Shown: positions 6,218 through 30,442 of the stretch, piece after piece
Layout: the number at the start of each line of letters is the position of its first letter
Position numbering within the stretch: position 1 is the first letter of the stretch
IMG/VR virus record: IMGVR_UViG_3300030329_003538
Span: 1-36,426 of that record
DNA: 36,426 nt
Source: a virus
Reading direction: 5' to 3' (one strand)
The notes under the pieces: generated by a model
The model's database searches: none
Seen by the model: the letters and a program-made list of their open reading frames with translations, nothing else
Told to the model about the DNA's origin: nothing
Position numbers and translations under genes: made by a program

Positions 6218-6946
6218 CTATAGTATTTTTTCCATTCCTGCCGGATTAAAGTCTCCGTGGAATCCAAAAGATCCGTATGTGGGTAGCACTCGCCTGTCGT
6301 AATTGCCCAATTCTTTTATCGGGTGCTCTACGGAAAATTTATACGCTAACTCTGAAGGGGCGAACTTAACGCCCCTGTTTACCATGTTGTAGTAATTGAA
6401 TACGCAAATGTTTAGGTCTTCATTCTTGTGGAAGATTTCTAGATTAAAACAAGAGTCTATAAATCGCTTGCTCCTTATGGAAAACCCGCCGTTTCCTACT
6501 ACATTGGGAAACCACTTAACTTTATCCTGACACATATCACTTGTTCTTAAAATGTGTTCTGGCCAAGGTGCTCCTATATAGTCGTATTCAAGGAAAGCGT
6601 CTGTCCATTTGCTTTGATCTATTATTGTAGAATCTGACTGAACATTTAAACAAAACTCAGTTTTGACACCCTCCTGTAGTTTCTTTAAGAATACATTTGA
6701 AAACTTTTCTCTTTCCGTGTCGTTCTTGAGGTCTGAGGAGATCGATTCACCGATAGATACGACTGTGATGTCGTTTTCTTGTATGAACTTGTCGTATCGT
6801 TTTGCTGATTCAGTATCTGTTATTATAATCTTACCACCAAACTCAACCCTATCAATACAATTCTGCATAGAGTTCACTGAATTTCTAGAGTGCTCATTGT
6901 CACCCCAAAACAGTGAGAGCAACGTGACATCATTTAGTTTAAGCAT
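6218..6946 (-). CDS. DUF5672-type glycosyltransferase
   Basis: 242 aa. The diagnostic string is YIGAPWP followed by NVVGNGGFSIRSKRFID, then NEDLNICVFNYY and FGFHG near the C-terminus. This is the pattern of DUF5672 proteins, putative GT-A transferases found in phages and in bacterial capsule or flagellar glycosylation loci. The VQSDSTI segment may stand in for the metal-binding loop. The start overlaps the upstream intein-bearing glycosyltransferase by 8 nt, so the two are probably co-translated. Substrate unknown. Confidence 0.82.
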   Translation of the reverse strand: MLKLNDVTLLSLFWGDNEHSRNSVNSMQNCIDRVEFGGKIIITDTESAKRYDKFIQENDITVVSIGESISSDLKNDTEREKFSNVFLKKLQEGVKTEFCLNVQSDSTIIDQSKWTDAFLEYDYIGAPWPEHILRTSDMCQDKVKWFPNVVGNGGFSIRSKRFIDSCFNLEIFHKNEDLNICVFNYYNMVNRGVKFAPSELAYKFSVEHPIKELGNYDRRVLPTYGSFGFHGDFNPAGMEKIL

Positions 6947-9692: not shown

Positions 9693-9693
9693 G

Positions 9694-10005
9694 TTAGTCC
9701 TTTTCGGGTTGGCAAATATCAAATTCATTAACTCGAAAGACGATAGATCCATCTTCTTCCGTTGCATTTCGAGCAGAACAATACACAGTCATTTTTGTGC
9801 CTCTGTCCACTAGCTTTTCTATGGTTTCAGCGCCGGTATGCCATGCCTCTAGGTTAATATAGGTTGGTATCCTGGTTTTTTCACCAGTCGCCTTAGACCT
9901 CCTATAAGTATAGGATACAAGGGTAAATTCCACAACACTGACTCCCCCTTCGACAGATAATTCAGGGTCATCAACTACAAAACCCGTAAAAGTACAGACA
10001 TTCAT
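9694..10005 (-). CDS. ssb: Single-stranded DNA-binding protein (SSB)
   Basis: 103 aa from ATG 10005, which has AGGA just upstream; a longer frame to 10056 lacks this. The OB-fold pattern of bacterial SSB is clear: MNVCTFTGFVVDDPELS, VVEFTLVSYTYRR, YINLEAWHTGAETIEKLV, GTKMTVYCSAR, VFRVNEFDI. It is short: the acidic C-terminal tail of cellular SSB is reduced to CQPEKD, which lacks the terminal DDIPF-like hook. It would coat ssDNA at the phage fork. It is preceded by a 144-nt leader with a promoter and a palindrome, one of two such leaders here, so its expression may be reset at this point. Confidence 0.85.
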   Translation of the reverse strand: MNVCTFTGFVVDDPELSVEGGVSVVEFTLVSYTYRRSKATGEKTRIPTYINLEAWHTGAETIEKLVDRGTKMTVYCSARNATEEDGSIVFRVNEFDICQPEKD

Positions 10006-12199: not shown

Positions 12200-13015
12200 C
12201 TAATTATTATACACAAAAATCTCAACATTGCCTTCGATTATTTCTTTCAGTGGGCGCATTTTTTTGTCAGCACATAAAAATTTATGATCCAGTGTGCATC
12301 TAATTGTGTCGCCGTCAGACGTTTGTACTTCATATATTTCCTTTTCTCCGCTATCTATTACATCTACTACATCAACGTAATGATCTTCTTCATCGTTTTT
12401 GGGTGCTAATACTTTATCTCCAGCCTTTATCTCGTGAAGAAGTTTAGGTCCGTTTGGAGTGTAGACAACTGTTTCTGGATCTAGACATTTATTAAATGCA
12501 TAGCGGGAAGATTTCTCAATCCAACTGAAGATAGCTTCAGCGGTTTCTTTGGTAACGATTCCTTTACTAGTCGCACCCTTTAGGAAAGCTTTCTTTACTT
12601 TCGCCATGAGATCGGCTTTTTTCTTACCAATAGCTTTACGTAGCTCGTCAGCTTCCTTTAGGTCGAATCCTGCTAACTTTTGGGCTATACGCATAGACTG
12701 CTCTTGATATACAAGGACGCCGTGAGTTGGTTTTAGGATTTCTTCTAAAGACTCGTGTAGGTATGTAATCTCATCACGTCCATGTTTTCTATCAACATAG
12801 TGCTGAGTCATCGACTTACCATCGGTAATGGCCTTGAGTGTTCCTGGTCTGATAATCGCTATTAAGGCCGATAGTTCTTCAAGGTTCGATGGGGCGACCT
12901 TCTTAGACCATGACTTACCTAAATTACTTTCAAGTTGGAATACACCTTTAGTGTAACCATTTTTAAACAAGTCCCAAGTCTTGCTGTCTTCCAAGTCAAT
13001 CTTAGACATACACAT
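12200..13015 (-). CDS. dnaE: DNA polymerase III alpha, middle fragment with split-intein N-half
   Basis: About 271 aa from ATG 13015 (ATG 13009 is an alternative; the frame continues to a TTG at 13039). Polymerase residues 1-176 match the DnaE fingers: NGYTKGVFQLES, ALIAIIRPG, YVDRKHGRDEITYLHESLE, GVLVYQEQSMRIAQ, LRKAIGKKKADLMAKVKKAF, ending SRYAFNK. The last 95 residues are IntN. It lacks the palm aspartates, which are in the separate 13672-15285 product. It overlaps the exonuclease gene by 14 nt. No strong SD is seen, so translation is probably coupled to the exonuclease gene. Confidence 0.9.
   Translation of the reverse strand: MCMSKIDLEDSKTWDLFKNGYTKGVFQLESNLGKSWSKKVAPSNLEELSALIAIIRPGTLKAITDGKSMTQHYVDRKHGRDEITYLHESLEEILKPTHGVLVYQEQSMRIAQKLAGFDLKEADELRKAIGKKKADLMAKVKKAFLKGATSKGIVTKETAEAIFSWIEKSSRYAFNKCLDPETVVYTPNGPKLLHEIKAGDKVLAPKNDEEDHYVDVVDVIDSGEKEIYEVQTSDGDTIRCTLDHKFLCADKKMRPLKEIIEGNVEIFVYNN
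12203..12487 (-). mobile_element. Split intein, N-terminal half (IntN, 95 aa)
   Basis: Begins with Cys1 straight after FNK: CLDPETVVYTPNGPKLLHEI (block A), then GDKVLAP, and block B TIRCTLDHKFLC with T-x2-H. It ends IFVYNN at a TAG stop. There is no endonuclease domain. Together with the 38-aa IntC it makes a 133-aa mini-intein. The codon for Cys1 is TGT at 12487-12485. Confidence 0.92.
12206..12211 (-). promoter_or_regulatory. Possible -10 box ahead of the homing endonuclease gene
   Basis: A perfect TATAAT on the minus strand within the last codons of IntN, 42 nt before the endonuclease ATG. No convincing -35 is seen at 16-18 nt. Own control signals accompanying an inserted endonuclease gene are known for fractured loci, but in an AT-rich stretch this could be chance. 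Confidence 0.25.
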
Positions 13016-13679
13016 CACCGTTTGCAAAGGCTTTGTCAACTTTTAAATTACGGTATACAGCACGATGCGTTTTCATGAACTTGATCATGATATTCGCGGT
13101 GTCTTTAACGTCCTGAAGGGCATCGTGGGCGTTTTCAGTAGACATCCCCATTCTTTCACGCATAGAGTCCATGCTTATAGACTTCACATTAGGATCGCCC
13201 TCTGTCCACATAAATACATTATCCATAACGTCGATCTTGTAGACTGAGCTAAACAGCTTTTGACGTTTACGCTTGTCATCCCACGGTCCAAACTCTTGGC
13301 ACAACCTGTCTATGATAATCATGTCATAGCCAATGATGTTGAAGCCCGCAGGGATAGGAGCAAAGAAAGGTGTACCTTTCCAGTTATACTTGTCTACAAA
13401 CTGAGTAAACTTTTTCCATACGGTTTTCAAGTGTGGAGCTTTTGCGATACCCTCTCTGGTTTTACCTGTAACTTTTAGGGCACCTTCTTCGATTGGGCCT
13501 AAACCCTTCTTAACGGCCTTTTCATCGTCTACCTCTGCACGGATCTCGCTATTGAAAGACCCCTTCAGCTTAAAGTTCCTACCATCCAACGCTATAGCAG
13601 CCAACTGTGTAGGCTGACATGTGTTGGGGTCTCTACCGCCTGTTTCAAAGTCAAATACAATTATATCTCGGTTAGCCAT
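13002..13679 (-). CDS. DnaQ-like DEDDh 3'-5' exonuclease
   Basis: 225 aa starting MANRDIIVFDFETGGRDPN. Exo I is FDFETGG (Asp and Glu), Exo II is NIIGYDMIIIDRL (Asp) and Exo III is NAHDALQDVKDTANI (His and Asp), a full DEDDh set. It is therefore a likely active proofreading exonuclease for the fragmented Pol III, comparable to the epsilon subunit. Its ATG overlaps the stop of the N-terminal polymerase gene by 8 nt, and its end overlaps the middle polymerase gene, so it is wedged between two pieces of the enzyme it should serve. AGGA lies about 8 nt before the ATG. Confidence 0.88.
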   Translation of the reverse strand: MANRDIIVFDFETGGRDPNTCQPTQLAAIALDGRNFKLKGSFNSEIRAEVDDEKAVKKGLGPIEEGALKVTGKTREGIAKAPHLKTVWKKFTQFVDKYNWKGTPFFAPIPAGFNIIGYDMIIIDRLCQEFGPWDDKRKRQKLFSSVYKIDVMDNVFMWTEGDPNVKSISMDSMRERMGMSTENAHDALQDVKDTANIMIKFMKTHRAVYRNLKVDKAFANGDVYV

Positions 13680-15285
13680 TTATCAATTCCTCAACTTTCA
13701 TTATCTTGTCTAAAAGTGTTAGTCCAAGCACGTCAAACTTAACATGTCCTAGTGCTTCTAAATCTGCCATTTCAAGTCCCGCAATCTTTTCTCCACCGCT
13801 GCGTTGATTTACCATCGGGCAAACCTTTGGTAGAGGTTCTGCCGATATAACAACTCCAGCAGCATGCTTGCCTTGAGTTTTAAATGTCCCCTCTATCTCA
13901 ATTGCCTGTTTAAAGAATTCAGCGTAATCACCGTCAAGATCTCCGTTGTCATTAATGAAACAAAAATCACGAAGGTCGTCGGCGTTGTTGATCAATGCCC
14001 ATCTGATGATAGATCTATCTTCTTCGTCCATCTCTTGTAACTGGTCAGAAATTGCAGCTTCGTCAGGAATGGACTTGGTGATCTCGTTCATTTCGCTAAA
14101 GCTACACACGTCACTAATACGCAGCACTTCTTTTAAGGCGCTCCTACCTTGCAGCCTGCCAAATGTAAGCATCTGACTCACGTTATCTTTACCGTAAGTA
14201 TTTTTAAGATACTCAATGATATCATCACGTTTGTTAGCTGGAACATCCATGTCAATGTCTGGAAGTGAATCAGTGCGGGCTGCATTATAAAACCTTTCAA
14301 ATAATAAATCAAACTCAATTGGGTCAATCTGAGTAATTTCAATGAGGTAAGAAATCAGGCACCCAGCAGCAGACCCTCGACCCGGACCAGCTAGCCACCC
14401 CTGATTTGTTACATATCTAATAATATCCTGTACGATCAAAAAATATCCAAACAGTTTAGCTTGCTTGATTACATCAAACTCCATAGTAAATCTGTCAAGA
14501 TATGTTTTCTTGTCCTCTTCTCTTTTTACCTTCCCGGTTTTATGTAGGAATTTTACCCACCCTTCGCGGCAAAGTTGTTTTAAATGTCCTTCTTCGGACT
14601 CACCCTCTGGGGTTGGGAACTTCGGAAGCATTGGCGGGTTAAGAATCTCATAATCTTCGCACAGCTTGTAGATTTCCTCTAAACATGACTCACCGTATTT
14701 ATCGTCGGGCATTTCTGCAAGAGACTTTAGATGAAATGTATCTTTTATGAAAAACTCTTCGTTTTTCTCTAGCTTGCCAGATCTCACAAGCGTATTAACC
14801 TTCGGTAGAGTCGTTTTCATGGCTGAACACAGCAGTATTCTATGAAGATGGGCGTGTTCACGCTCAATGTAATGAGAAGGTGACGTAAGTGGGTTTTGCT
14901 TGAATGTCAACCGCCTGTCACATGGAGAATCGCTATATTCGCCATCAGTAATGCAAATCAGGTTCCCTCTTTGACAAATCTCTTTCGTAATGTTAAGGTA
15001 CTCGTTACCCTCTGGACTTAAGGAAGACACAATCTCAATCAAATCAAACCACCCCTGCTTGTTTTTTGCAAACAGGATGTAATGGTCGAATGAGCAGCCA
15101 ATAATTGGTTTTATTCCACTATCCTTACAGGCTTTGTAGAACGACACCGCGCCTGATATCGACTTGTAGTCAGAGATTCCGCAGGCAACGTATCCATTCT
15201 CAACACATTTTTGGGATAGCTGTTTAGGCTTAGAGAAGCCCTTCAGCAACGAGTAGTGCGTGTAGTTACAAAGTGGGTATTTCAT
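13672..15285 (-). CDS. dnaE: DNA polymerase III alpha, N-terminal fragment (PHP and palm)
   Basis: 537 aa from ATG 15285, preceded by GAGAAAG; ATG 15306 is a possible earlier start without an SD. Residues 1-80 are PHP-like (YTHYSLLKG, GISDYKSISG, GIKPIIG), but the usual H-x-H-S metal motif is lost. The palm has GPGRGSAAGCLISYLI, PDIDMDVP (two catalytic Asp), QMLTFGRLQGRSALKEV, GKHAAGVVI and VKFDVLGL (third Asp). It ends LDKIMKVEELING, exactly before the variable linker that precedes GVFQLES in normal DnaE. Nothing conserved is missing between this piece and the next, so non-covalent reassembly with the spliced C-part is plausible. A palindromic element lies just upstream. Confidence 0.93.
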   Translation of the reverse strand: MKYPLCNYTHYSLLKGFSKPKQLSQKCVENGYVACGISDYKSISGAVSFYKACKDSGIKPIIGCSFDHYILFAKNKQGWFDLIEIVSSLSPEGNEYLNITKEICQRGNLICITDGEYSDSPCDRRLTFKQNPLTSPSHYIEREHAHLHRILLCSAMKTTLPKVNTLVRSGKLEKNEEFFIKDTFHLKSLAEMPDDKYGESCLEEIYKLCEDYEILNPPMLPKFPTPEGESEEGHLKQLCREGWVKFLHKTGKVKREEDKKTYLDRFTMEFDVIKQAKLFGYFLIVQDIIRYVTNQGWLAGPGRGSAAGCLISYLIEITQIDPIEFDLLFERFYNAARTDSLPDIDMDVPANKRDDIIEYLKNTYGKDNVSQMLTFGRLQGRSALKEVLRISDVCSFSEMNEITKSIPDEAAISDQLQEMDEEDRSIIRWALINNADDLRDFCFINDNGDLDGDYAEFFKQAIEIEGTFKTQGKHAAGVVISAEPLPKVCPMVNQRSGGEKIAGLEMADLEALGHVKFDVLGLTLLDKIMKVEELING

Positions 15286-15311
15286 ATTCTTTCTCAACAA
15301 AAACATAACAA

Positions 15312-15743: not shown

Positions 15744-16973
15744 TTATAGTAATTCCTTAATTACACTGCCGCCGTTTGCCATCTTAATGGGTCTGCCGCT
15801 CTTAGACGTATGCTTTTTCTCTGTGTCGATTCCCAATGCCGACAAAGTTGTAGCCATCAAATCCGAAGCGGTGTACGACTTCCCATCAACTGTCTTTCCG
15901 TCAGGTGAGGTTTTTCCAATAGCCTGCCCCCCTTTGAATAGACCTCCGGAAACAAATGAGGACCACGTAGCAGCCCAATGGTCACGACCAGCATTTTGGT
16001 TGATACGAGGTGTGCGACCAAATTCCCCCATACATATTATAGCAGTATTTTGCCAAATGTCCAATCTTTTTAGGTCAAAAATCAGAGAATTTAGAACTTT
16101 ATCTAACTGTGGCAGTTTTGTTTGGAGGGTTTCATGCGTCATATTGTGCAAGTCCCAACCTCCGAAGCCAACTTCTACGAATGGGACTCCCTGTTGAATC
16201 AAACGCCGAGCCATAAGTGCTCCACGACCTAGACTTGTATTGCCGTATGCTTCAAGAACCTGTGCGGGTTCCTGTTCAATTTTAAGAGCATTCATCTGCG
16301 GACTTGTGTTCAGCTTAAAGGTTTTTTCAAGTAGCTTCTTGTGATCGCTTGGCATCTCCCCACGATTGCTTTTTATAAAATTATCCTCTATTACCGAAAG
16401 CATTCTAAGTCTGTTGACGTTTAGGTTGTCGCCCCCAAGATTTGGTACAGTTCCATTGCTACGAACAGAAAAGGGATTCCAAGCCGTCCCTAGAAACCCA
16501 CCACCGTGACTATTTGTGTCGATGGAGAAGAAAGCTGGAATTTCCAAACCTTTGTTTAGGGGTCCAAGCTCACTGGCAACAACCGATCCTATTGACGGGT
16601 GTACCATTCGAGGGTTGGGAGCAAAGCCCGTGTGCATCTTGTACCGGCCTCGCCCATGATCTGCCTCACGGGTGCTCATACTCCTAATAAGCGAGAAATC
16701 ACCCCCTCTCTGAGCGAGAAGTGGTAGGTGTTCTGAGATTTGGAAGTCACCAGTTGTGCTAATTGGCTTGAAAGGACCGCCCTCTTTGGTTCCCGGCTTC
16801 AAGTCCCACATGTCAATAGTAGGAGGACCGCCACCCAGCCAGATCAATATCGCTGCCTTTCGGTCTTTATGAAGTTTGGAATGATTATGTATAATCTGTT
16901 GACCAAATGTTAGCGAAGTACTGGCTAGGGTGGCTAGTCCTGTTGAATGTTGTATGAATTGTCTTCTGTTCAT
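15744..16973 (-). CDS. TAT-exported DUF1501 (alkaline phosphatase-like fold) protein, copy A
   Basis: 409 aa. The N-terminus NRRQFIQHSTGLATLASTS has twin arginines plus a hydrophobic stretch, a TAT-type signal. DUF1501 landmarks: IWLGGGPPTIDMWDLKPG, FGGWDLHNMTHE, CMGEFGRTPRINQNAGRDHW and GRPI near the end. DUF1501 proteins belong to the sulfatase/alkaline-phosphatase-like superfamily, occur mainly in Planctomycetota and relatives, and have no settled reaction. The length is usual for the family and no truncation is seen. It starts in an ATGA overlap with glf. It is unexpected in a phage; it may modify the host envelope or be an acquired host gene. Confidence 0.9.
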   Translation of the reverse strand: MNRRQFIQHSTGLATLASTSLTFGQQIIHNHSKLHKDRKAAILIWLGGGPPTIDMWDLKPGTKEGGPFKPISTTGDFQISEHLPLLAQRGGDFSLIRSMSTREADHGRGRYKMHTGFAPNPRMVHPSIGSVVASELGPLNKGLEIPAFFSIDTNSHGGGFLGTAWNPFSVRSNGTVPNLGGDNLNVNRLRMLSVIEDNFIKSNRGEMPSDHKKLLEKTFKLNTSPQMNALKIEQEPAQVLEAYGNTSLGRGALMARRLIQQGVPFVEVGFGGWDLHNMTHETLQTKLPQLDKVLNSLIFDLKRLDIWQNTAIICMGEFGRTPRINQNAGRDHWAATWSSFVSGGLFKGGQAIGKTSPDGKTVDGKSYTASDLMATTLSALGIDTEKKHTSKSGRPIKMANGGSVIKELL

Positions 16974-18055
16974 TTTAGCTCTTTCTTTGCTGTGCTCATT
17001 GAGGATGCAATAACTTGGTGCATATCATAATATTTATATTCAGCTAACCTGCCGCCAAATATGTACTTATCTTTTATCAGGCTCTTGTATCTATAAAACT
17101 TGTCTTGATTCTTTTTGTCATTTATCGGGTAAAATTTTTCTTTGCCCCTCGTCCACGTCTGGGGGTATTCTTTAGTAAAAACAGTATCCTTTTGCCCCGT
17201 GTTGTTAAAGTGTTTGTGTTCAACTATTCTGGTGTACGGCGTGTCTACATCTGTATAGTTTACCGCCGCCACACCTTGAAAATCTAGATCTTTCCGATCA
17301 TTGTGTTCGAACCTAAGACTTCTCCACTCTAATTCTCCATATTCGTATTCAAAAAACTCATCTATCGCTCCGGTGTAAACCACTCTTTTAGCCATTTTAT
17401 CATATGATTCACGGTTTGTCAAGTAGTTTTTTCCCAACTCGACAGGAATTCCTTCTAGCATATTTTGAAATATCTGAGTGTACCCGCCTGTGGGAATGCC
17501 TTGATACCTGTCGTTGAAATAGTTATCGTCATAAGCTAGCCTAATCGGTAGCCTTTTTATGATTGATGCTGGTAAATTTTTAGGATCTGTATTCCACTGC
17601 TTATACGTATAGCCGTAAACAAACTTTTCATACAATTCTTTGCCGACCTGTGATAATATCCACTCCTCTAGGTTGTTGGGAGATTCATTGTGAATTTTTA
17701 CGCTATCTAGATACGCTTTTGCCTCGCTGGGTGTAGATACGCCGCATATTTGATACAGGGTCATCAAATTTATTGGAAACGAATAAATCTCATTCTTGTA
17801 GTTAACCTTTGGTCTGTAGGTGAAGTTATTGAAGTCTGTAAACTGACCGATGTAGTCCCATATGGGTTGGCTGTTTGTGTGAAATATGTGAGGGCCGTAG
17901 ACATGGACATCTATTCCCAGCTTCTTTTTCGTAAAACAATTGCCACCTACATGATCTCTTTTATCAATGACTAGACATTTTTTGCCCCTGTCCGTAGCCT
18001 GTCTAGCAAATGTAGCACCAAACAGACCACATCCTACAACCAAGTAGTCATACAT
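16970..18055 (-). CDS. glf: UDP-galactopyranose mutase
   Basis: 361 aa. The FAD-binding Rossmann motif is VVGCGLFGATFARQATDRGK (residues 6-25), followed by VIDKRDHVGGNCF and VHVYGPHIFHT, the hallmark of Glf. Further family segments are YKNEIYSFPINLMTLYQI, GYTYKQWNTDP and RYQGIPTGGYTQIF. The C-terminus YKYYDMHQVIASSM is also typical. It interconverts UDP-galactopyranose and UDP-galactofuranose in the cytoplasm. It probably supplies Galf to nearby transferases. Length matches cellular homologues (360-390 aa). Confidence 0.95.
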   Translation of the reverse strand: MYDYLVVGCGLFGATFARQATDRGKKCLVIDKRDHVGGNCFTKKKLGIDVHVYGPHIFHTNSQPIWDYIGQFTDFNNFTYRPKVNYKNEIYSFPINLMTLYQICGVSTPSEAKAYLDSVKIHNESPNNLEEWILSQVGKELYEKFVYGYTYKQWNTDPKNLPASIIKRLPIRLAYDDNYFNDRYQGIPTGGYTQIFQNMLEGIPVELGKNYLTNRESYDKMAKRVVYTGAIDEFFEYEYGELEWRSLRFEHNDRKDLDFQGVAAVNYTDVDTPYTRIVEHKHFNNTGQKDTVFTKEYPQTWTRGKEKFYPINDKKNQDKFYRYKSLIKDKYIFGGRLAEYKYYDMHQVIASSMSTAKKELK

Positions 18056-18066
18056 GGTACTTCCAT

Positions 18067-18831
18067 TTAAATATTTTTATATTCTTTAAAGAATTTATCG
18101 TTCAACATCTTCTCCGTTATGTATTCTATATCTTCTTCGTAATCTAAACTAATAGATTCACTCTCTACTTTTTTTGTAACTATTTTATAGCCATTTTCAA
18201 TAAGTCTTAGGAACTCATGATCTTCAATTTTGTCCATTGGTGTTTGTTGCATTTTACAGTATGCTTCAAGAGTGCTTCTTTTCCAAGAAGTTATATGATG
18301 GGCTTTTAATCTATAATCAACAGGATTTTTTTTAGAACAGGGTATATCCCCGCGAGAGATATACATAATTTCATTATAACAATTTGTAACAACTTTAAAA
18401 TCTCCTATTGAATTTTCTTTTTTAAATTCAGTGACTAGCATCGAAGCATCCGCACTCTCGGAGGATTTTAACGCATCTAAGCTTACTCTAATGTGTTCAG
18501 GATTTAACAAAAGTTCATCACCCATAATTTGTACAAATACATCTCCGTTAATATTACGAATAGCCTCAACTGTTCTTTCTGTGCCATTTTTATTTTTGGC
18601 GGATGTCATTACAGCTTTGCCTCCATTGTCTTTAACTAAGGAAGCTATCTTTTCGCTATCTGTAGCAACATAAACATCTGAAATATCTAAACTTTGTTGG
18701 ACTCTTTTTAGGACATGAATTACTGAGGGCATTCCGCATATAGGTATCAACGCCTTTTGATGAATTCTACTAGAATTTAACCTTGCTGGAATAATCCCTA
18801 CAACTTTGGCTTTTGAGGTGGCTTTAGTCAT
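18067..18831 (-). CDS. CMP-sugar (Kdo-type) cytidylyltransferase
   Basis: 254 aa. KdsB-like signature: GIIPARLNSSRIHQKALIPI at residues 12-31, then VYVATDSEKIASLV, GTERTVEAIRNI, FVQIMGDELLLNPEHI (QGDEP replaced by MGDEL), YISRGDIPC, and a C-terminal LRLIENGYKIV. The closest known activity is CMP-3-deoxy-manno-octulosonate synthesis; the RLP/GKP motif is altered (SSRIHQK), so another nonulosonate or octulosonate is possible. It overlaps the sialyltransferase-like gene upstream by 8 nt, so donor synthesis and transfer are encoded together. Confidence 0.82.
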   Translation of the reverse strand: MTKATSKAKVVGIIPARLNSSRIHQKALIPICGMPSVIHVLKRVQQSLDISDVYVATDSEKIASLVKDNGGKAVMTSAKNKNGTERTVEAIRNINGDVFVQIMGDELLLNPEHIRVSLDALKSSESADASMLVTEFKKENSIGDFKVVTNCYNEIMYISRGDIPCSKKNPVDYRLKAHHITSWKRSTLEAYCKMQQTPMDKIEDHEFLRLIENGYKIVTKKVESESISLDYEEDIEYITEKMLNDKFFKEYKNI

Positions 18832-19480
18832 ATATTCTTCTTACCTTTTTGTTGTCAACTAATAAATTAATAATTTTGATCTCAGAGCATAGATCGTGTG
18901 CTCCGTGAGGATCAGTAAAATCTGTTCTTTTATAAACTAGCTCACCATCTATAAGTTCTGGTTTCCATGATGGGTAATTGGTTGTTTCATCCTGTGAAGC
19001 AAAACCAGCTATACTCACACTATGGTGCGTCCTAAGATAATACAATATAACGCATAGGCCAGTTGTCAGAAAACGAAATCCTGTGCCATCTTCTGTTGCT
19101 GCGAGAATTAAAGAATAAGTATCAAATAAATGCTGCATACTAAAGTAGTCTGTCTGCTTGTCAGACATTTCTATAAAGTCGATTATCTCTCGGTCTGTAA
19201 TGACACCTAAATTAGAAGCAGGAGAACATCTATCAACAATCAAAACTTTATTAATATTTTGCTGGTTAGTGTAATTTGATAAGGGTTTATGCCAACCAAT
19301 TTGTTCACCTATTATTGCATAGGTGCTGCTTTTTCTCCCTAGGTCGTGGGCCATGTTTGGATCTGGTAAATGTTTTACTCTTACGACTTCATCATGTGAG
19401 TCTATAATTTCTCCACATCCTTTGCCTCTAATAGACGCAGACATTCCGACTATACATACTTTAGGTTTTTTTACTTTCAT
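18824..19480 (-). CDS. GT29 sialyltransferase-like glycosyltransferase
   Basis: 218 aa. Sialylmotif-like blocks: VCIVGMSASIRGKGCGEIID followed by HDEVVRVKHL (L motif), TGFRFLTTGLCVILYYL (S motif) and DPHGAHDLCSEIKIINLL (His motif). This is the layout of GT29-like enzymes found in phages and bacteria. No membrane anchor is seen, unlike animal Golgi forms. GT29 enzymes use CMP-activated sugars, and the next gene encodes a CMP-sugar synthetase, so the pair forms a plausible pathway. ATG 19480 lacks a strong SD. Confidence 0.8.
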   Translation of the reverse strand: MKVKKPKVCIVGMSASIRGKGCGEIIDSHDEVVRVKHLPDPNMAHDLGRKSSTYAIIGEQIGWHKPLSNYTNQQNINKVLIVDRCSPASNLGVITDREIIDFIEMSDKQTDYFSMQHLFDTYSLILAATEDGTGFRFLTTGLCVILYYLRTHHSVSIAGFASQDETTNYPSWKPELIDGELVYKRTDFTDPHGAHDLCSEIKIINLLVDNKKVRRIYD

Positions 19481-19508
19481 ATTTATGCCGCTATGCCTTT
19501 ATTTTTAT

Positions 19509-20558
19509 TCACACCCATTCTTCAGCCCTTTTTTGCATTTGACTTTCTTGATACCACTTTGCATCTAGATGTCCACACGGTAGAAAAACCAAATCCTCTT
19601 GTGACATCTGCCACATTATGGATGCAAATTCACACCAGTAGGCTGGCACTCTCTTGCTGTAGTATTCACTTCTAGGCTTAATCCTGTTTTCATTCTTTTT
19701 ACAGAAAAAGTCTACTTTGGGGATAATGTCCTTTTCGTTAAAGAACCCGTGTAACTCTTCGTATAGATTTCTTTTAGACACAATCTGTTGCCAGATCGCG
19801 GCTATTCCAAAGTCTGGCTCTATACCAACTAAGTCTAGGAATTCAAAAGCTAGATCGTGATCAAAATCTGAAAATATAAAATCAAATACTTTTTTTTCGC
19901 CTTGCTTGTCAAAATCTACCCAAGAACAACTACAGATAGAAGCGGCACATAAGATTACATTACTTTCTTGATCTAATACGTGAGGTAAAACGTCCCAATT
20001 GATAAAATCATATATGTCATAATGATTGTGACACTTAGTATTCCAAGATCCGCTTAAGGTTCCTACAATTTTAGATTCTTTTTTAAATAGCTTATCTATA
20101 TCCGCTAGGTAGACTCTGGATTCGGCCCATTTATTGTCTGAGTATTTTGGATCTATGTCTAGCTCGTTGAGGTTGCGTATTTTTAATCCTGGAATATCTA
20201 CATCTTCGTTGTTAAACTGCTGCTTGGAGTGTGTCAGCAGCAGAACTTCAACATCCCCATCTTCTAGACACGTTGTTGGTTCTTGTTCGGCAAGTGCGAT
20301 TGATCTATCAATGCACTTTTTGTCCACGTCGTGCTTTCTACATTTAGGTCTTTGTAGATTTGCTAGACATGAAAACCCGTTGACCATCCTCCGCCTAGAG
20401 TTTTGGGTGTCTACAAAATGTTTTACTCTCTCTCCCCGTGTAGCATCTTGACACCACTGCCAGTTCGGAGGTTTGGTGCCCATTTCTTTTTCGAAAACGT
20501 GACAAAATCCAGCACTTGGACACTGGCACTTTGAGAAATCTATCTCGCTGATTTCCAA
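19509..20558 (-). CDS. Cys-rich N-terminal protein of unknown function
   Basis: 349 aa. TTG 20558 is chosen as start because AGGAG lies 7 nt upstream and no ATG occurs early in the frame. The first 80 residues hold a cysteine series (KCQCPSAGFCHVF, WQWCQD, GFSCLANLQRPKCRKH, KKCID) that could bind metal. The remainder has VEVLLLTHSKQQF, then a repeated acidic helical part, and the C-terminus YWCEFASIMWQMSQEDLVFL, which might be an acceptor or nucleotide-sugar region. I cannot assign a family. The position inside a glycan island suggests glycan modification. Confidence 0.65.
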   Translation of the reverse strand: MEISEIDFSKCQCPSAGFCHVFEKEMGTKPPNWQWCQDATRGERVKHFVDTQNSRRRMVNGFSCLANLQRPKCRKHDVDKKCIDRSIALAEQEPTTCLEDGDVEVLLLTHSKQQFNNEDVDIPGLKIRNLNELDIDPKYSDNKWAESRVYLADIDKLFKKESKIVGTLSGSWNTKCHNHYDIYDFINWDVLPHVLDQESNVILCAASICSCSWVDFDKQGEKKVFDFIFSDFDHDLAFEFLDLVGIEPDFGIAAIWQQIVSKRNLYEELHGFFNEKDIIPKVDFFCKKNENRIKPRSEYYSKRVPAYWCEFASIMWQMSQEDLVFLPCGHLDAKWYQESQMQKRAEEWV

Positions 20559-20585
20559 TTATTTTCTCCTGATCCTCGCCAGTCC

Positions 20586-21188
20586 TTACCAAGCTTTACA
20601 AGACCAGTATCTAGCTTTCCATCTTGGTCCAGGGTTATCACAGTTATGACATACCTTGAATGATTTTCGGCGTTCTGGTTCAAAGTTTACCTTAACAACA
20701 TTACCCTTGGCGTTTTTGACGTACACGCTCATTTTTTTAGGGCCGTTAGGTGTTCTAAATGGCTTATTTAGTTTTACGGCTTTGCCTTGATATTCAGAAG
20801 CTCTAACGGGTATTAGAACCCTTCCGTTTTTTTTATAGATACCTCTCCTATTGTAGGTGAATATCTCACCGGTTTTTGGGTCTTGGTATTTGAATTCTTT
20901 TGATATAGCAAATTTCCACTCTTCCTCATCTTCTGAAAAGTCAACATAATCTTCTTTTTTTGGCACTACAAAGTTTGATTCATCGACCTCTTCTTCAAAT
21001 CCAAACGCTTCGTATGTAAACTGAAAGTCTGCTGATTCTACATAGTCAATACCTTCACAGGCTTTACTAATGCATATTGCTGTGCGTTGCTTTCGGTCTG
21101 GATACTCTTCTTTCATTTTGGTGTCGCTCATACAGCGACCCATGAATTTGTTTTTTTCTTCTTTCCCCTTTTTGGATGGGATGGGCAT
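20586..21188 (-). CDS. Phage-type two-module protein of unknown function
   Basis: 200 aa with AGGAG 6 nt before ATG 21188. The N-terminal module (MPIPSKKGKEEKNKFMGRCM, then EYPDRKQRTAICISKACEG) resembles the short segment found at the ends of several phage structural or protease-associated proteins. The C-terminal module (KKMSVYVKNAKGNVVKVNFE, then CHNCDNPGPRWKARYWSCKAW) resembles a conserved phage C-terminal domain with CxxC, familiar from T4-like cyanophages. An acidic linker (about residues 50-95) joins them. The role is unknown; a virion-associated role is my inference. Confidence 0.7.
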   Translation of the reverse strand: MPIPSKKGKEEKNKFMGRCMSDTKMKEEYPDRKQRTAICISKACEGIDYVESADFQFTYEAFGFEEEVDESNFVVPKKEDYVDFSEDEEEWKFAISKEFKYQDPKTGEIFTYNRRGIYKKNGRVLIPVRASEYQGKAVKLNKPFRTPNGPKKMSVYVKNAKGNVVKVNFEPERRKSFKVCHNCDNPGPRWKARYWSCKAW

Positions 21189-21209
21189 TATCTACTCCTA
21201 AAAAATTCT

Positions 21210-21458
21210 CTAACCCTGGGTTTGTCTGTATCTAGTCTTTAACACGAAATCTTTCACCTCTTCTGGTGGAGGTAGTAACAGGGGAGCCGGGGCAACAAGA
21301 GGTGGGTTTATTTGTCTTTGTGGAGCTTGGATTGGCACAGGAACCGGAACCTTTATTTTTTTAATAAAGATTGGTACGTGTCTATAGCCTTCCCATCCTA
21401 TATACAAGGACAAACACAAAGATAAGCACACAAAAAAACCTAAGATAAAGTTCTTCAT
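21210..21458 (-). CDS. Small membrane-anchored proline-rich protein
   Basis: 82 aa. Residues 3-20 (NFILGFFVCLSLCLSLYI) form an N-terminal membrane helix or uncleaved signal. After it comes a basic stretch and a proline-rich periplasmic-type segment (KVPVPVPIQAPQRQ, LLLPPPEEV). An AGGGG-type SD lies a few nt before ATG 21458. The layout resembles small phage envelope proteins; a spanin or superinfection-exclusion role is possible but unsupported by any motif. Confidence 0.6.
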   Translation of the reverse strand: MKNFILGFFVCLSLCLSLYIGWEGYRHVPIFIKKIKVPVPVPIQAPQRQINPPLVAPAPLLLPPPEEVKDFVLKTRYRQTQG

Positions 21459-21499
21459 ATTCCACCCCTTCTTGCGATTAAATTATATATAACATCCTA

Positions 21500-21515
21500 T
21501 AATACTATAGTATTA
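21500..21515. repeat. Perfect 16-bp palindrome at end of DUF1501 gene
   Basis: TAATACTATAGTATTA reads the same on both strands. It covers the stop codon region of the upstream DUF1501 gene (stop at 21505) and the start of the 46-nt gap before the membrane-protein gene. It may be an operator or the core of a weak promoter region; an AT-rich TATATATAAT follows at about 21481-21490 on the minus strand. Confidence 0.5.
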
Positions 21516-22743
21516 CCTGCCCGTCTCCATCTAGTAAGTATCGAGGTCTTCCGGCTTGGTCCATTCTCTGAATCTTAGCATCTATGCTAAAGTGGTCAAA
21601 CAAAGTTGCCGCTAGATCTATTGGACCAATCTTTTGATCGGTAGGGTAATACCCCTTATCGGCCTTGCCAATAACTCTACCGTGCTCATAATCGCCACCA
21701 GATAGAAGCATAGGTGTGATGGACGGCCAATGGTCGCGGCCAGAGTTAGCATTTAATCTAGTTCTACCAAATTCTCCTGTGACGACAAGCAGGACATCTT
21801 TACTCATGCCCATATTATAGATGTCATCAACAAATGCGGAAAGGGCTTTATCTATTGGTGGAACCCTCCCCTCAAGAGCCTTCTTTATGTTTCCATGCAT
21901 GTCCCAGCCACCATAATGGACCGTAACAAACTTGCTGCCAAACTGAGCTAACCGTCTAGCTAGAAGCATCTGGTCTCCGACTCCGCCCTTGCCATATCTT
22001 TCTCTTACCTTTTCGTCTTCTTGGTCTAGATCAAACGCATCTTTAGCGTTACCCAAGACGACATTGTAGGCTTGATCACCTATTTTTTCGAAAGAGTTAG
22101 CCTGATTAGAGAAAAACTTTCTCTTGCTATCAAAAAGACCTAATAGCTGTTTCCTATCCTTAAGTCTATCAATAGCGACCTTGGGGATCAGGTTTTCTTT
22201 GTTACTTGGGTCAAAGGGTTTATTAGCTCCACCAAGAAATGCTGGCTGCTCACCTTCGATTTTACCCTGTTTGACATAAGCTGGCATTCCATTTTTTGGA
22301 TGATTAGACCCAAAAACAGACGATATAATTGCTCCATGTCCAGGAAATTCTGAGTCAGCAGTCGTTTCCCTCTTAGGGTTGCGGTGACCCGTCATCATCC
22401 AGTGGGTGGCCTGTCTATGAGAAGAATCCCCATGTGAAAAAGAGTTTACGGCTGTTAAATTATCCCCTCTTTTGATCAAATTTTTAAACAATCCACCAAA
22501 TGCAAGCCCGTTGCTGTGAGTCACAACGTCACTAACAGATGAGTGTGTATCTGGAACGGGGTCAGTTGGAGCATGGAAAGTTTCAAACTGTGTAGGACCA
22601 CCACCCAGCCAAACCCAGACTACAGACTTATCATTTGAAGATATTGTATCCTCAGCAAAGATAGCGTCAGATAAAGACAAATAGCCTAAACCAAGTCCAC
22701 CAACTCTAATGAAATCTCTTCTGTTTGTTCGTATATCAAGCAT
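21505..22743 (-). CDS. TAT-exported DUF1501 (alkaline phosphatase-like fold) protein, copy B
   Basis: 412 aa; GGAG lies 8 nt before the ATG. The N-terminus TNRRDFIRVGGLGLGYLSLS is a twin-arginine signal. DUF1501 landmarks: VWVWLGGGPTQFETFHAP, MTGHRNPKRETT, VHYGGWDMHGN, VTGEFGRTRLNANSGRDHWP and GRPRYLLDGDGQVIL. It shares the family landmarks with the 15744-16973 product but differs strongly in most of its length, so this is a paralogue rather than a recent duplicate. The two bound the glycan island. Substrate unknown; a secreted metal-dependent hydrolase is inferred from the fold. Confidence 0.9.
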   Translation of the reverse strand: MLDIRTNRRDFIRVGGLGLGYLSLSDAIFAEDTISSNDKSVVWVWLGGGPTQFETFHAPTDPVPDTHSSVSDVVTHSNGLAFGGLFKNLIKRGDNLTAVNSFSHGDSSHRQATHWMMTGHRNPKRETTADSEFPGHGAIISSVFGSNHPKNGMPAYVKQGKIEGEQPAFLGGANKPFDPSNKENLIPKVAIDRLKDRKQLLGLFDSKRKFFSNQANSFEKIGDQAYNVVLGNAKDAFDLDQEDEKVRERYGKGGVGDQMLLARRLAQFGSKFVTVHYGGWDMHGNIKKALEGRVPPIDKALSAFVDDIYNMGMSKDVLLVVTGEFGRTRLNANSGRDHWPSITPMLLSGGDYEHGRVIGKADKGYYPTDQKIGPIDLAATLFDHFSIDAKIQRMDQAGRPRYLLDGDGQVIL

Positions 22744-22755
22744 TTTGTTTTCTCC

Positions 22756-23778
22756 TTAGCCGGGTGCTTCGTAATAGCCAATATTGAATCCGTCTCGCGT
22801 ACAATCGCTTACTGTTTTTTGCATACCATGTTTTTTAAGGTGCTCCTCTATATAAATACACATTTTTTGATCTGTACCCGGCCAGTTGTTTTTGTAAAAG
22901 TGACATAATTTCGTACATCGAAAGTCGCTTCTATTCTTGTTTATGGGTTTGGGTAGTTGATTTTTTTGTATCTCCTGAAACCTATCCTTCAACATTTTAA
23001 GAAATTTCTCTTGGTCCTTCTTGTCGAAGCACATACTAAACGGGCCTCCATCTTTCACGAAGAAAATGGTCATAATTGCCTGTTTATAGTCGGGATACAG
23101 CTTAGATATAGCATAATTATATAGTAACAGTTGGGGGTCTTTGCATAGTTTTTCGTAGTCCTTTTCTTCTCCTGTTGCCCAATCCACCCTACGGCCAGTT
23201 TTCCAGTCAACAACCTCTATTGTATCATCTGAAACCTGAGTTACAAGGTCAATTGTGCCTTTTATTGCTAATTGTCCATTTACCTTTTTGCCGTCTGGCA
23301 TTTCATATTCAAATTTTGCCCAATCTTCTTCAATTGGAATGTCAAAGTGTGGTTCTGGATCTACCACGTTTCTATTCCTTGGGTCGAAAGACCCTTCATT
23401 GTAATTCAGGGCTTTCCAGGATAGCTCGTGAACTGCCCTCCTGTCTGCGTTAGTCCACTTGTGAGGAGAATCCTTTAGGTAAGACTGGTAAGATAACTCT
23501 TCTAACTCCTCTACAAATTCATCAGTGTAAAGACGGTCCTTGTGTACTCTGACTTTGCCCGCAGCATCATCTATTATCTCCAAATACTTTTTGCGAGGGT
23601 TGTCCTGTTGGAATTTTTTGAGGGCGGCTAGAATTTCCATCACCTTGTGAACCATAGTTCCTAACTCTGCCTTTTTACCAGATGTAGACCTGTGTCCCAG
23701 TACATAGGTCATAAAGTATTGCATCTGGCAAAAAGCGTAGTTGTTGTAGCTTGAAGATCTTACATAGGTAATCAACAT
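22756..23778 (-). CDS. RecB/Cas4-like PD-(D/E)XK nuclease
   Basis: 340 aa. Residues about 41-50, GTMVHKVMEI, give the family His. IEVVDWKTGRRVDW supplies the Asp and Lys of the catalytic core, and PQLLLYNYAI is the Q-x3-Y motif. One early Cys (FCQMQYF, residue 17) plus FRCTKLCHFY and KMCIYI near the C-terminus could ligate a 4Fe-4S cluster, as in Cas4 and AddB. It probably processes DNA ends in replication or recombination. It starts in a TAATG overlap with the dNMP kinase gene. No cas1 or CRISPR array is nearby. Confidence 0.85.
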   Translation of the reverse strand: MLITYVRSSSYNNYAFCQMQYFMTYVLGHRSTSGKKAELGTMVHKVMEILAALKKFQQDNPRKKYLEIIDDAAGKVRVHKDRLYTDEFVEELEELSYQSYLKDSPHKWTNADRRAVHELSWKALNYNEGSFDPRNRNVVDPEPHFDIPIEEDWAKFEYEMPDGKKVNGQLAIKGTIDLVTQVSDDTIEVVDWKTGRRVDWATGEEKDYEKLCKDPQLLLYNYAISKLYPDYKQAIMTIFFVKDGGPFSMCFDKKDQEKFLKMLKDRFQEIQKNQLPKPINKNRSDFRCTKLCHFYKNNWPGTDQKMCIYIEEHLKKHGMQKTVSDCTRDGFNIGYYEAPG

Positions 23779-27913: not shown

Positions 27914-28322
27914 TTTGATCTCTCCAATCTTCGTCTGAGTCTAGGTAGCTGAACTCTACGAGGGTTATTTCATTTAGCTCGCACCATTCTTTTTTAACAG
28001 CATCTCTTCTTTTATGCTTATAGAATCCAGCCTCGGTTTTATGAAAAAAGGGGCAAAATTCATAATGCTGTCTGCCGTGAACCTCAACACCTATCATAAC
28101 ACTCGGTATCAAAAAGTCAAGAAACAAAGCGGATTTTTTGCTGGGATTTCTAGACCCTGGTAATTTTACCTCTTCTAGTACGCTGTATCCTTTAAAGGAT
28201 TTGCGTAATATATCGCGTGCTCGCAAATGATAACTTGACCTTTTTCTTGTGTCGTCATTCCTAACGATGTACTTTTTAAGGTCTATCCGATATTCTCTGC
28301 CGTTTATACCTAAAACTTTCAT
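27897..28322 (-). CDS. Vsr/PD-(D/E)XK-like nuclease
   Basis: 141 aa. The nuclease core is FLDFLIPSVMIGVEVHGRQH, with Asp, Glu and His-Gly-x-Gln-His, then a basic helix KRRDAVKKEWCELNEI and LVEFSYLD. The pattern is like Vsr and DUF559-type endonucleases. It overlaps recA by 4 nt (ATGA) and the next gene by 17 nt, as a normal operon member would. It may be a recombination nuclease, or a stand-alone relative of the homing endonucleases next to RecA genes in some phages. Confidence 0.7.
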   Translation of the reverse strand: MKVLGINGREYRIDLKKYIVRNDDTRKRSSYHLRARDILRKSFKGYSVLEEVKLPGSRNPSKKSALFLDFLIPSVMIGVEVHGRQHYEFCPFFHKTEAGFYKHKRRDAVKKEWCELNEITLVEFSYLDSDEDWRDQIDCAR

Positions 28323-30442
28323 CTGATTTCTTTTATCTGATTGTGAATGAATTTTGTTATCGGCTCATTCTCGGTTAAGAAATCGGTCAATTTTTGAATA
28401 CCTTGGAATTTAAAGAATTTCTGTACGGCTTCTGGGTCTTCATGGTCCACACTGTTGGCTTTTAAGACATTTTTGATAACCGGGTCTTTGCAGTTGTCAA
28501 TTGCGGTTGTAATTTCATACCAAGCTCCAGATCTTTTGACCATGCTAAATTCATTAGCTAATTGTGCTATTTCTTGAGCTTCGTCAATACCAATACCATA
28601 CCTAATCCACCCTTCGGCTGTAGAATTTGGTGTGCCACCAGAGGCAGATGTCAATATTTTCCAATTTGCAACCTGCCCAATATGAGGTCCAGATTCATCA
28701 TTAGATTGTAACCACTTACCCCTATGGGTAATTTTCATTTTAGTGCCAGCTTGATACTGCACCATGTTTCCAGAGTCTTCCATCTTGGCTGGAGACCAAC
28801 GGCTACCGCCAGTGTTTGCGATATTATGCAGTATGAATATTAGTATTGCCTTAGTTCTTGAAACGTCGCCAGAAATTCTTTTCAGGAACATCGACATTAA
28901 TCTCGGCAGGTTATTTCTAACGCCGGTCCTGATTTCACCTTCTAGCTCCTCCTGGGGGACCATATTAGATACCGAATCAACAATAGCCACAAGGTCTGGA
29001 GTATTTTTAACATACATCTCTAGGGTGTTAAGATACATTTCTGCGGACACTAACGGCATCTCGTCGGTAGCTTGTACAATCTTTATCTTCTTGGTATCTA
29101 AACCCTTGATTCCTGTAAAGTTCTCCTTGGTCATACGCCCTTCAGTATTGAAATAGATGATGTTCTTACCGAGAGCTTGACATTTAGATGCGAAATAAAG
29201 AGCAGTGGTCGTGTTATGAGTCACTGTAAAATTGTCTGTGACATACAGGTGGTCTGCATGATCTACGGAGATACATTGACACTCTTCTTGTCTGACAATT
29301 TCTATTTTTTTAATAGTCCTACATAGATTTGGTTTGCTTCTACACTGATTAAATTGTTTACGCGATAGTTTAAACAGCTTGTTTATATCGTTGCCAGATA
29401 TATGTAATCTAAAAGATTTAAACTCCTTTCCGTTACATTTTGTGATTCTTTCTCGTGTTTTAGCTGTATAACCAAGAGACTGTAGAATTTCTGTAACGTG
29501 AACACTCAGAGCATATGATACGGTAGAATACTCAGCGTTTTTACCTGAATCATTATAACCGTCTGTGTCCATTAACCCTCTAATAAGTTCAAATCTATCC
29601 TCTACTGATGAATAAATGTATTCTTTTGGTATGAATTTTGTATGAGAATTAGAACCCATCAAGCCTAAAGCTCTTAGTTTATTTGTCAAGTCGTTAGTTT
29701 CACCTTCTAGTTTAACTATTGCATAATCGTATCTAGATTTATGATTGATGCTTAGATTATTGTGCTTGGCAAAACATTTGAAAGATTCTAAAATTTCTCC
29801 ATCTGAGGTTGTTATAATTGGCGTACCTTGAGACATTCCGCCGTCTCCAAGTAAGCAACCTAATATATATGGATCTATTGGTAGATTCTGCTTATTAAAC
29901 AATATAGGTTCACATAATGGAATCTTCCATTTTGGTCTATCGCTATAAAACAGGCCGTCTTTAATAATTTCAGATAGCGGGAGAACTGTCCAATCTTTAT
30001 GTCTACCGTGGTAATTTTTTGACACTTTCCATAGATGGTCAATGCCACACTCTGCGTAAGACTCATCGCTAAATGTAATTCGATATACGTCTTTTACGCC
30101 TTGAGGGAATACACCATCAACTTCCGCCGATCCTCCATTTGGAGTGCATACAATATCGCCTATCTTTATATCACCCATCTTTACGGGGCCAGACGGTGTG
30201 TATACTGTTGATGATATAGGTTGTTCTTTACCAGTTTTTGGATCTCCACCTATGATTACACAGTTTCCCTCTCTGATTCCGCCACCGAGGGCGATGTCTA
30301 GAGCAGGAGAAACGCTAATCTTTTGGAAGGATTCTAGCTTGTCAAGTACTTCCTCTCCACTCTCTACGATAGGTCCGTACTTTGAGATTATTTGATTGCT
30401 AGTATCGTCATCTGAAAATTTATTCACTTTCTTTTTCGCCAC
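28319..30442 (-). CDS. recA: RecA-family recombinase interrupted by a class 3 intein
   Basis: 707-aa precursor from GTG 30442, with GGAG 8 nt upstream. The exteins total 369 aa. The N-extein (1-72) ends GGDPKTGK and the C-extein starts TTTALYFASK, so the Walker A GDPKTGKTT is split at GK|T. Next come an Asp/Glu switch region (FNTEGRM), Walker B LVAIVDSVSNM, LPRLMSMFLKRI, ILIFILHNI with TGG, and a C-terminal domain. The family is RecA/UvsX-like; no further distinction is made. It would drive strand exchange and repair. The 338-aa intein makes activity depend on splicing. Confidence 0.92.
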   Translation of the reverse strand: MAKKKVNKFSDDDTSNQIISKYGPIVESGEEVLDKLESFQKISVSPALDIALGGGIREGNCVIIGGDPKTGKEQPISSTVYTPSGPVKMGDIKIGDIVCTPNGGSAEVDGVFPQGVKDVYRITFSDESYAECGIDHLWKVSKNYHGRHKDWTVLPLSEIIKDGLFYSDRPKWKIPLCEPILFNKQNLPIDPYILGCLLGDGGMSQGTPIITTSDGEILESFKCFAKHNNLSINHKSRYDYAIVKLEGETNDLTNKLRALGLMGSNSHTKFIPKEYIYSSVEDRFELIRGLMDTDGYNDSGKNAEYSTVSYALSVHVTEILQSLGYTAKTRERITKCNGKEFKSFRLHISGNDINKLFKLSRKQFNQCRSKPNLCRTIKKIEIVRQEECQCISVDHADHLYVTDNFTVTHNTTTALYFASKCQALGKNIIYFNTEGRMTKENFTGIKGLDTKKIKIVQATDEMPLVSAEMYLNTLEMYVKNTPDLVAIVDSVSNMVPQEELEGEIRTGVRNNLPRLMSMFLKRISGDVSRTKAILIFILHNIANTGGSRWSPAKMEDSGNMVQYQAGTKMKITHRGKWLQSNDESGPHIGQVANWKILTSASGGTPNSTAEGWIRYGIGIDEAQEIAQLANEFSMVKRSGAWYEITTAIDNCKDPVIKNVLKANSVDHEDPEAVQKFFKFQGIQKLTDFLTENEPITKFIHNQIKEIR
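29213..30226 (-). mobile_element. Class 3-type intein with LAGLIDADG endonuclease, in recA Walker A
   Basis: 338 aa, residues 73-410 of the precursor. The first residue is Glu, not Cys/Ser/Ala: EQPISSTVYTPSGPVKMGDI. The Trp-Cys-Thr signature of class 3 inteins is present: Trp in GIDHLWKV (block B, two after His), Cys in CQCISVDHADH (block F, in place of Asp), and Thr in TVTHN (block G). The +1 residue is Thr. Two LAGLIDADG motifs, ILGCLLGDGG and LIRGLMDTDGY, show a full endonuclease. Splicing would start at the block F Cys. Boundaries were checked at codon level: GAA at 30226 and AAC at 29215. Confidence 0.92.

Follow-up and report, generated by a model that had tools for sequence, protein, structure and literature searches.

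The closest described relatives of the genes considered here are the DUF1501 proteins of planctomycetes, of which each of six genomes carries between 12 and 79 copies. Excerpts of one study describe the family as lacking characterisation (PMC4452313), and excerpts of another describe DUF1501 beside chitin synthase genes with a twin-arginine motif (PMC5122149). Among phages, one paper mentions DUF1501 as a faint match to a protein of 61 aa (PMC5418858), and Phage-ZRK32, a chronic phage of 21.9 kb according to an excerpt of its description, was the only cultured planctomycete phage found in the literature searched (PMC10945688). Here, we describe two DUF1501 genes, P0001 and P0002, in the IMG/VR virus record IMGVR_UViG_3300030329_003538 (36,426 bases, analysed whole and referred to below as the window), together with their relatives in other viral records. 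Phage and planctomycete copies share the family, a start of the twin-arginine translocation (Tat) type, the invariant residues and near-full-length similarity. The planctomycete genes often stand beside DUF1549/DUF1553, whereas the phage copies do so in only one record seen, and the phages carry several paralogues in a fixed order inside a replication module. As host-derived, variable cargo, the phage DUF1501 genes resemble other phage auxiliary genes, but they differ in that distinct paralogues of a single family were captured again and again, mostly into one slot, and in their Tat-type start. DUF1501 in bacteria and host-derived cargo in phages are already known; a conserved phage DUF1501 cassette and its repeated capture are apparently new, no account of either having been found in the literature searched.

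Both P0001 and P0002 match PF07394 over nearly the whole model (288 and 207 bits, respectively; cut-off 27) and begin with a twin-arginine motif (MNRRQFI and MLDIRTNRRDFI), and they are 27% identical to each other. They are surrounded by replication and nucleotide genes, namely those encoding PolIII-alpha, a PD-(D/E)XK exonuclease, dNMP kinase, primase, DnaB, RecA, PhoH and ribonucleotide reductase (RNR). The window is phage DNA, and the original prediction of two twin-arginine DUF1501 proteins in a phage is borne out by these matches, starts and neighbours. An RRx-hydrophobic motif at the N-terminus with a hydrophobic stretch behind it was found in 146 of 148 full-length viral DUF1501 copies, both window proteins included, versus 35 of the 1,094 other open frames of at least 200 aa in the same loci. 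The phage proteins are predicted to be exported via the host Tat machinery. Both genes are under purifying selection, with ratios of non-synonymous to synonymous substitution (dN/dS) of 0.088 for P0001, 0.058–0.059 for P0002 and 0.039 for the polymerase; these ratios are rough, dS being high throughout (1.1 to 2.3). Of 11 estimates, 6 were saturated and have been left out. Among GenBank phages, neither P0001 nor the window exonuclease found a match, and P0002 found one (30% coverage, E 2e-3). A viral protein from an uncultured Caudovirales phage that bears the DUF1501 name, A0A6J5M742 in BFVD, was recovered by Foldseek (E 1.1e-8); it differs from the window DUF1501 at 13% identity and 489 residues.

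Relatives extend well beyond one odd contig, as the search of viral contigs proposed with the original prediction demonstrated. Viral scans returned 25 loci for P0001 and 43 for P0002, or 66 distinct loci, with three contigs common to both lists and near-identical contigs not merged in the counts. Five duplicate loci (L048, L083, L085, L086 and L087) were kept out of the tree and of the tallies of copies, gene order, companions, Tat-type starts and small proteins. An independent scan used the exonuclease next to P0002, to avoid searching on the answer, and found 214 relatives; among the best 80 loci, which include L083, L085, L086 and L087, DUF1501 was present in 41. These comprise 12 of the 34 loci with the polymerase in view, 8 of the 10 in which 3 kb or more is visible without the polymerase, and 21 of the 36 with less sequence than 3 kb. 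The main site of the phage DUF1501 genes lies between the exonuclease and polymerase genes, an interval that can be just 8 bases where DUF1501 is lacking (L116, L121). Of 26 whole virus records, 23 have 1–4 copies and three, of 61–116 kb, have none. The group moves, because some records hold DUF1501 genes away from the exonuclease: the contigs of L064 and L065 have their exonuclease in L139 and L131, where no DUF1501 gene adjoins it, and two copies lie elsewhere in the record of L105. On an exonuclease tree of 109 rows, a set that takes in loci found through DUF1501 itself and includes 15 rows that could not be judged, DUF1501 presence requires four changes.

The viral copies were assigned by tree and best match to five subtypes, with 77 copies of B, 37 of C, 30 of A, 19 of A′ and 15 of D (all five duplicate loci counted); P0001 belongs to subtype A and P0002 to subtype B. 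The order B, C, D, then A or A′ was seen in 54 of the 55 loci with at least two subtypes, L044 being the exception, although these loci are related and the 54 cases are not independent events.

The phylogeny indicates that phages captured DUF1501 genes from planctomycetes at least four times. A cellular scan with a P0001-headed alignment covered one genome per species (84,980 species); the best 80 loci taken were 49–56% identical, and their titles name Planctomycetota or subgroups, save two "bacterium" records and one SAR202 contig. The nearest relatives of A, B, C and D were then sought in 294 Planctomycetota genomes. Subtype A has a clear orthologue group at 50–56% identity, subtype B its nearest relatives in three genomes at 44–46%, and subtypes C and D host groups at up to 70% and 62% identity, respectively. 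The host matches include Pirellulaceae genera which, like Kuenenia, are planctomycetes. In a tree of 112 proteins, built by a quick method under LG+G4 with support from the Shimodaira–Hasegawa-like approximate likelihood ratio test only, viral rows form clades B (20 rows, support 99), C (11 rows, 98), D (3 rows, 99), A (10 rows, 100) and A′ (9 rows, 100), which adjoin or nest within distinct planctomycete groups. The approximately unbiased (AU) test rejected a single clade of all viral rows (p-AU 7.06e-5) but not the union of A with A′ (p-AU 0.09), which is why we claim at least four captures and not five. Two further loci, L021 and L024, add one row each and may represent further captures; L021 groups with one host row (support 96), and L024 sits on a long branch.

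P0001 and P0002 fall into two well-supported virus-only clades, and the placement of both inside one bacterial species cluster with host genes alongside, which had been named as a sign of a chimeric contig, was not found. The tree and AU test also reject an origin of the two genes by one duplication within a phage; they derive from different planctomycete paralogue groups. With virus-only clades beside planctomycete groups and phage genes on both sides, carriage by a phage is genuine and its source of planctomycete type, much as originally proposed. A planctomycete-type host is the best inference for these phages. The indirect clues to it are the origin of the genes and the presence of DUF1559 and DUF1549/DUF1553 genes in the relative L024, whose DUF1559 protein (L024:14285-15418) has a pilin-type start and lies near DUF1501, so that planctomycete hallmark genes occur in a phage. 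DUF1559 was found in the L024 record alone among 27 virus records.

One contig labelled SAR202 cluster bacterium (L213; VFHP01000007.1, 152,655 bases) carries a phage-type exonuclease followed by DUF1501 genes of subtypes B, C and A′, up to 90% identical to phage copies. It seems to be a phage contig of this lineage binned into a SAR202 metagenome-assembled genome, a second contig of which also has DUF1501 copies; its three rows were taken as viral, a decision made after seeing them. L021 and L022 were first suspected to be host fragments, since L021 falls within a host clade. This was not upheld: of the 16 open frames in L021 just 2, DUF1501 and a UvdE-like frame, have a match in the host loci searched, its G+C is 0.33, and ThyX, UvdE and DNA ligase lie near. 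L021 is probably phage.

AlphaFold models of both proteins (P0001: predicted local distance difference test score, pLDDT, 87.5 and predicted template modelling score, pTM, 0.86; P0002: 85.5 and 0.87) can confidently be given the alkaline-phosphatase superfamily fold. In VIA-align, the best match of P0001 was ENPP6 (Z 19.2, 3.2 Å, 243 residues) and that of P0002 was Xac NPP (Z 20.0, 3.3 Å, 244 residues), with PafA, SPAP and sulfatases ranking just under them; across the superfamily the overall fold resembles the DUF1501 models at Z 17–20 over ~240–270 residues. Chains at Z 8 or more numbered 490 of the 1,000 compared with P0001 and 499 of 999 for P0002, and sequence searches of the PDB with DUF1501 found no relative. 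The predicted fold of both proteins agrees with an ester hydrolase. In an alignment of 67 proteins (51 viral and 16 host; L024, L181, L205 and the three L213 rows excluded), H106, W273, D274, H276, E317, F318, R320, T321, N325, R330, D331 and H332 (P0001 numbering) never vary, and every sequence has an acidic residue at position 54. The comparison with alkaline phosphatases, phosphodiesterases and sulfatases used the general motifs of these enzymes as well as the profile alignment described below.

The host A, C and D genes examined adjoin PSCyt2/PSD1 (DUF1549/DUF1553), with exceptions among the D loci, and the host A genes also adjoin an extracytoplasmic function (ECF) sigma factor. The only phage record seen with this partner is L024, further to the 26 records, in which DUF1549/DUF1553 stands directly before DUF1501 and downstream of rIIA and rIIB, all in a row (L024:2-5793). 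The phage genes have other companions. Near DUF1501 among 97 loci, a protein designated c1 was found in 44, a PAP2 phosphatase in 13 and a trypsin-like protein in 12; examples of the latter two travelling with DUF1501 are L063:15313-15981 (PAP2) and L031:9012-9995 (the trypsin-like secreted protein). Judged by eye and by hydropathy, Sec-type starts occur in the trypsin-like proteins, c10 and c16, and a single N-terminal helix in c8, c11 and c15; the same hydropathy measure predicted no helix in the PAP2 proteins listed. Small one-helix proteins trail 29 of 133 DUF1501 copies versus 40 of 702 other genes; they had been considered as a constant partner, but this is a fourfold excess only and we claim no fixed pair. 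Taken together, the cassette leans toward the envelope.

Our leading, though tentative, reading, held at a little under even confidence, is that planctomycete phages export DUF1501 proteins to alter phosphate or sulfate esters of the envelope or periplasm. The window would be a fragment of a large planctomycete phage whose lineage repeatedly acquired DUF1501 genes from its hosts and retains them as a cargo cassette, in most cases placed between the genes for exonuclease and polymerase. In an infected cell, the proteins would be synthesised together with those for replication, fold in the cytoplasm and leave by host Tat export. Once in the periplasm or outer envelope, they would serve as metal-dependent hydrolases of the alkaline-phosphatase superfamily and cleave phosphate or sulfate esters on envelope glycans or lipids, and the cell surface would be remodelled to the phage's advantage. 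Of this reading, the sequence family, the phage setting, the repeated origin from hosts, the conserved Tat-type start, the fold and purifying selection are established, while the host, export, catalysis, substrate and benefit are inferred. A bolder version, which we think unlikely, holds that up to four separately captured paralogues in fixed order would each act on a surface ester of its own through a non-standard metal site, making the infected cell resistant to competing phages or easier to leave.

Several observations count against hydrolysis or against the generality of the cassette. We know of no substrate for any member of the family. DUF1501 is 8–15% identical to alkaline-phosphatase superfamily members, and its E317-F318 aligns with the Asp-His of sulfatases, the metal pair usual for the fold at the end of its central strand, in a profile alignment too faint to carry proof (E between 0.29 and roughly 2). 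No Ser, Thr or Cys near positions 98–106, where a nucleophile is expected, is invariant, and no nucleophile is evident; the invariant residue there is His106. With Glu-Phe aligned to Asp-His and no nucleophile conserved, the chemistry of the site would be unusual or absent; the modelled fold speaks for an ester hydrolase and the site for unusual chemistry or none. PSCyt2 (DUF1549) was found in 0 of the 26 virus records, Planctomycetota genomes were the whole scope of the cellular searches with B, C and D, and DUF1501 is missing from this place in 22 of the 34 exonuclease loci whose polymerase is in view, which makes it non-essential to the lineage.

The same fold would also suit auxiliary metabolism, in which exported hydrolases free phosphate or sulfate from organic esters for nucleotide synthesis during infection, and PhoH, RNR and dNMP kinase in the window and PAP2 phosphatase in some cassettes are in keeping with it. 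A fixed order of four distinct paralogue positions, however, points to several particular substrates and not to bulk scavenging, no transporter is among the window families, and the trypsin-like companion is a poor fit; we regard this explanation as rather unlikely and, because the cassette companions lean to the envelope, prefer envelope remodelling to nutrient release by a modest margin. It is somewhat less probable again that the phage proteins are non-catalytic adaptors that replace or titrate host DUF1501 in DUF1549/DUF1553 complexes. The altered metal pair in the weak profile alignment would fit such a role, as would the contrast between the host A, C and D groups, which adjoin DUF1549/DUF1553, and the virus records lacking DUF1549, but phage copies retain every family-invariant residue, as expected with activity under selection, and L024 has DUF1549/DUF1553 beside its DUF1501. 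An aid to egress, in which the exported hydrolases would act with the trypsin-like protease and the small membrane proteins to break the planctomycete envelope at lysis, is improbable: the Sec-type trypsin-like protein, the excess of one-helix proteins after DUF1501 and the rIIA and rIIB genes directly upstream in L024 point that way, whereas the cassette lies among replication genes rather than in a late module and most relatives with the polymerase in view do without DUF1501 in this place. Given the host copy numbers, chance inclusion of host DNA is conceivable, yet dozens of contigs carry the same genes flanked by phage genes, the viral copies form virus-only clades, and third-position G+C is 0.42 in P0001 and 0.37 in P0002, like the phage, against a median overall G+C of 0.56 in host loci. 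A chimeric or host contig is ruled out on these grounds for all practical purposes.

Table 1. Genes of the DUF1501 cargo slot and its two edges in the window.
Feature	Position	Strand	Matches and remarks
PolIII-alpha (PHP + NTPase domains)	13672..15306	-	PF07733 8e-69, PF02811 6.5e-18; one edge of cargo slot
DUF1501 P0001, subtype A, 409 aa	15744..16973	-	PF07394 288 bits; Tat-type start; alkaline-phosphatase superfamily fold (model)
UDP-galactopyranose mutase	16970..18055	-	PF03275 1.7e-73; TIGR00031 373 bits, cut-off 303.75
CMP-sugar synthetase, KdsB-like	18067..18831	-	PF02348 5.2e-39; KdsB-type NCBIfam to 7.6e-59, below their cut-offs
GT29 (sialyltransferase)-like protein	18824..19480	-	PF00777 2.4e-10
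349-aa protein, in inserted island	19509..20558	-	No Pfam, PHROGs or NCBIfam match
c1, 200 aa	20586..21188	-	Weak phrog_7595 match at C-terminus; often beside DUF1501
82-aa protein	21210..21458	-	One N-terminal hydrophobic segment, proline-rich tail; open reading frame just downstream of P0002
DUF1501 P0002, subtype B, 412 aa	21505..22743	-	PF07394 207 bits; Tat-type start; same fold as P0001 (model)
PD-(D/E)XK exonuclease	22756..23778	-	PF12705 1e-22, phrog_69; other edge of cargo slot

The genes of Table 1 form a co-directional run from the exonuclease to the polymerase. P0002 follows the exonuclease after 12 bases, and the 82-aa protein behind it resembles, by eye, the c8 genes that trail subtype B in relatives in its start and layout. 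Then come c1, the 349-aa protein, the GT29-like, CMP-sugar synthetase and UDP-galactopyranose mutase genes, P0001 (with a 4-base overlap) and a 112-aa protein. The remainder of the window holds replication and nucleotide metabolism genes, plus glycosyltransferases. The DUF1501 pair had been described as bracketing a glycan island. The island is real and contains the mutase, the KdsB-like cytidylyltransferase and the GT29-like protein, but the bracketing is merely one state of a wider cassette. The island looks like a later insertion, since in the relative L003 the two DUF1501 genes are near neighbours without it. Third-position G+C is 0.24–0.27 in the CMP-sugar synthetase and GT29-like genes (18067-19480), as if recently acquired, versus 0.36–0.43 in the other eight window genes measured; the GT29-like protein had no match among GenBank phages.

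Intein or homing-endonuclease signals were seen in a glycosyltransferase, a polymerase finger-domain piece and RecA (window 6939-9767, 12200-13039 and 28319-30442), with Intein_splicing scoring under its cut-off and LAGLIDADG_3 over it. The PolIII-alpha gene is fragmented (window 12200-15306), with an RNase T-like exonuclease frame between the PHP/NTPase and finger parts, and the end of the finger piece resembles an intein, possibly a split one.

DUF1501 is a highly expanded and unexplained planctomycete family, and the phages cut the problem down to 1–4 selected copies with few partners. Its function becomes testable for that reason. If the bolder version given above were true, the non-standard metal site would bring new chemistry to the alkaline-phosphatase superfamily. 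Phage DUF1501 genes also offer a practical marker for large planctomycete phages. Their carriage points to planctomycete hosts and opens a route to the role of very common bacterial proteins.

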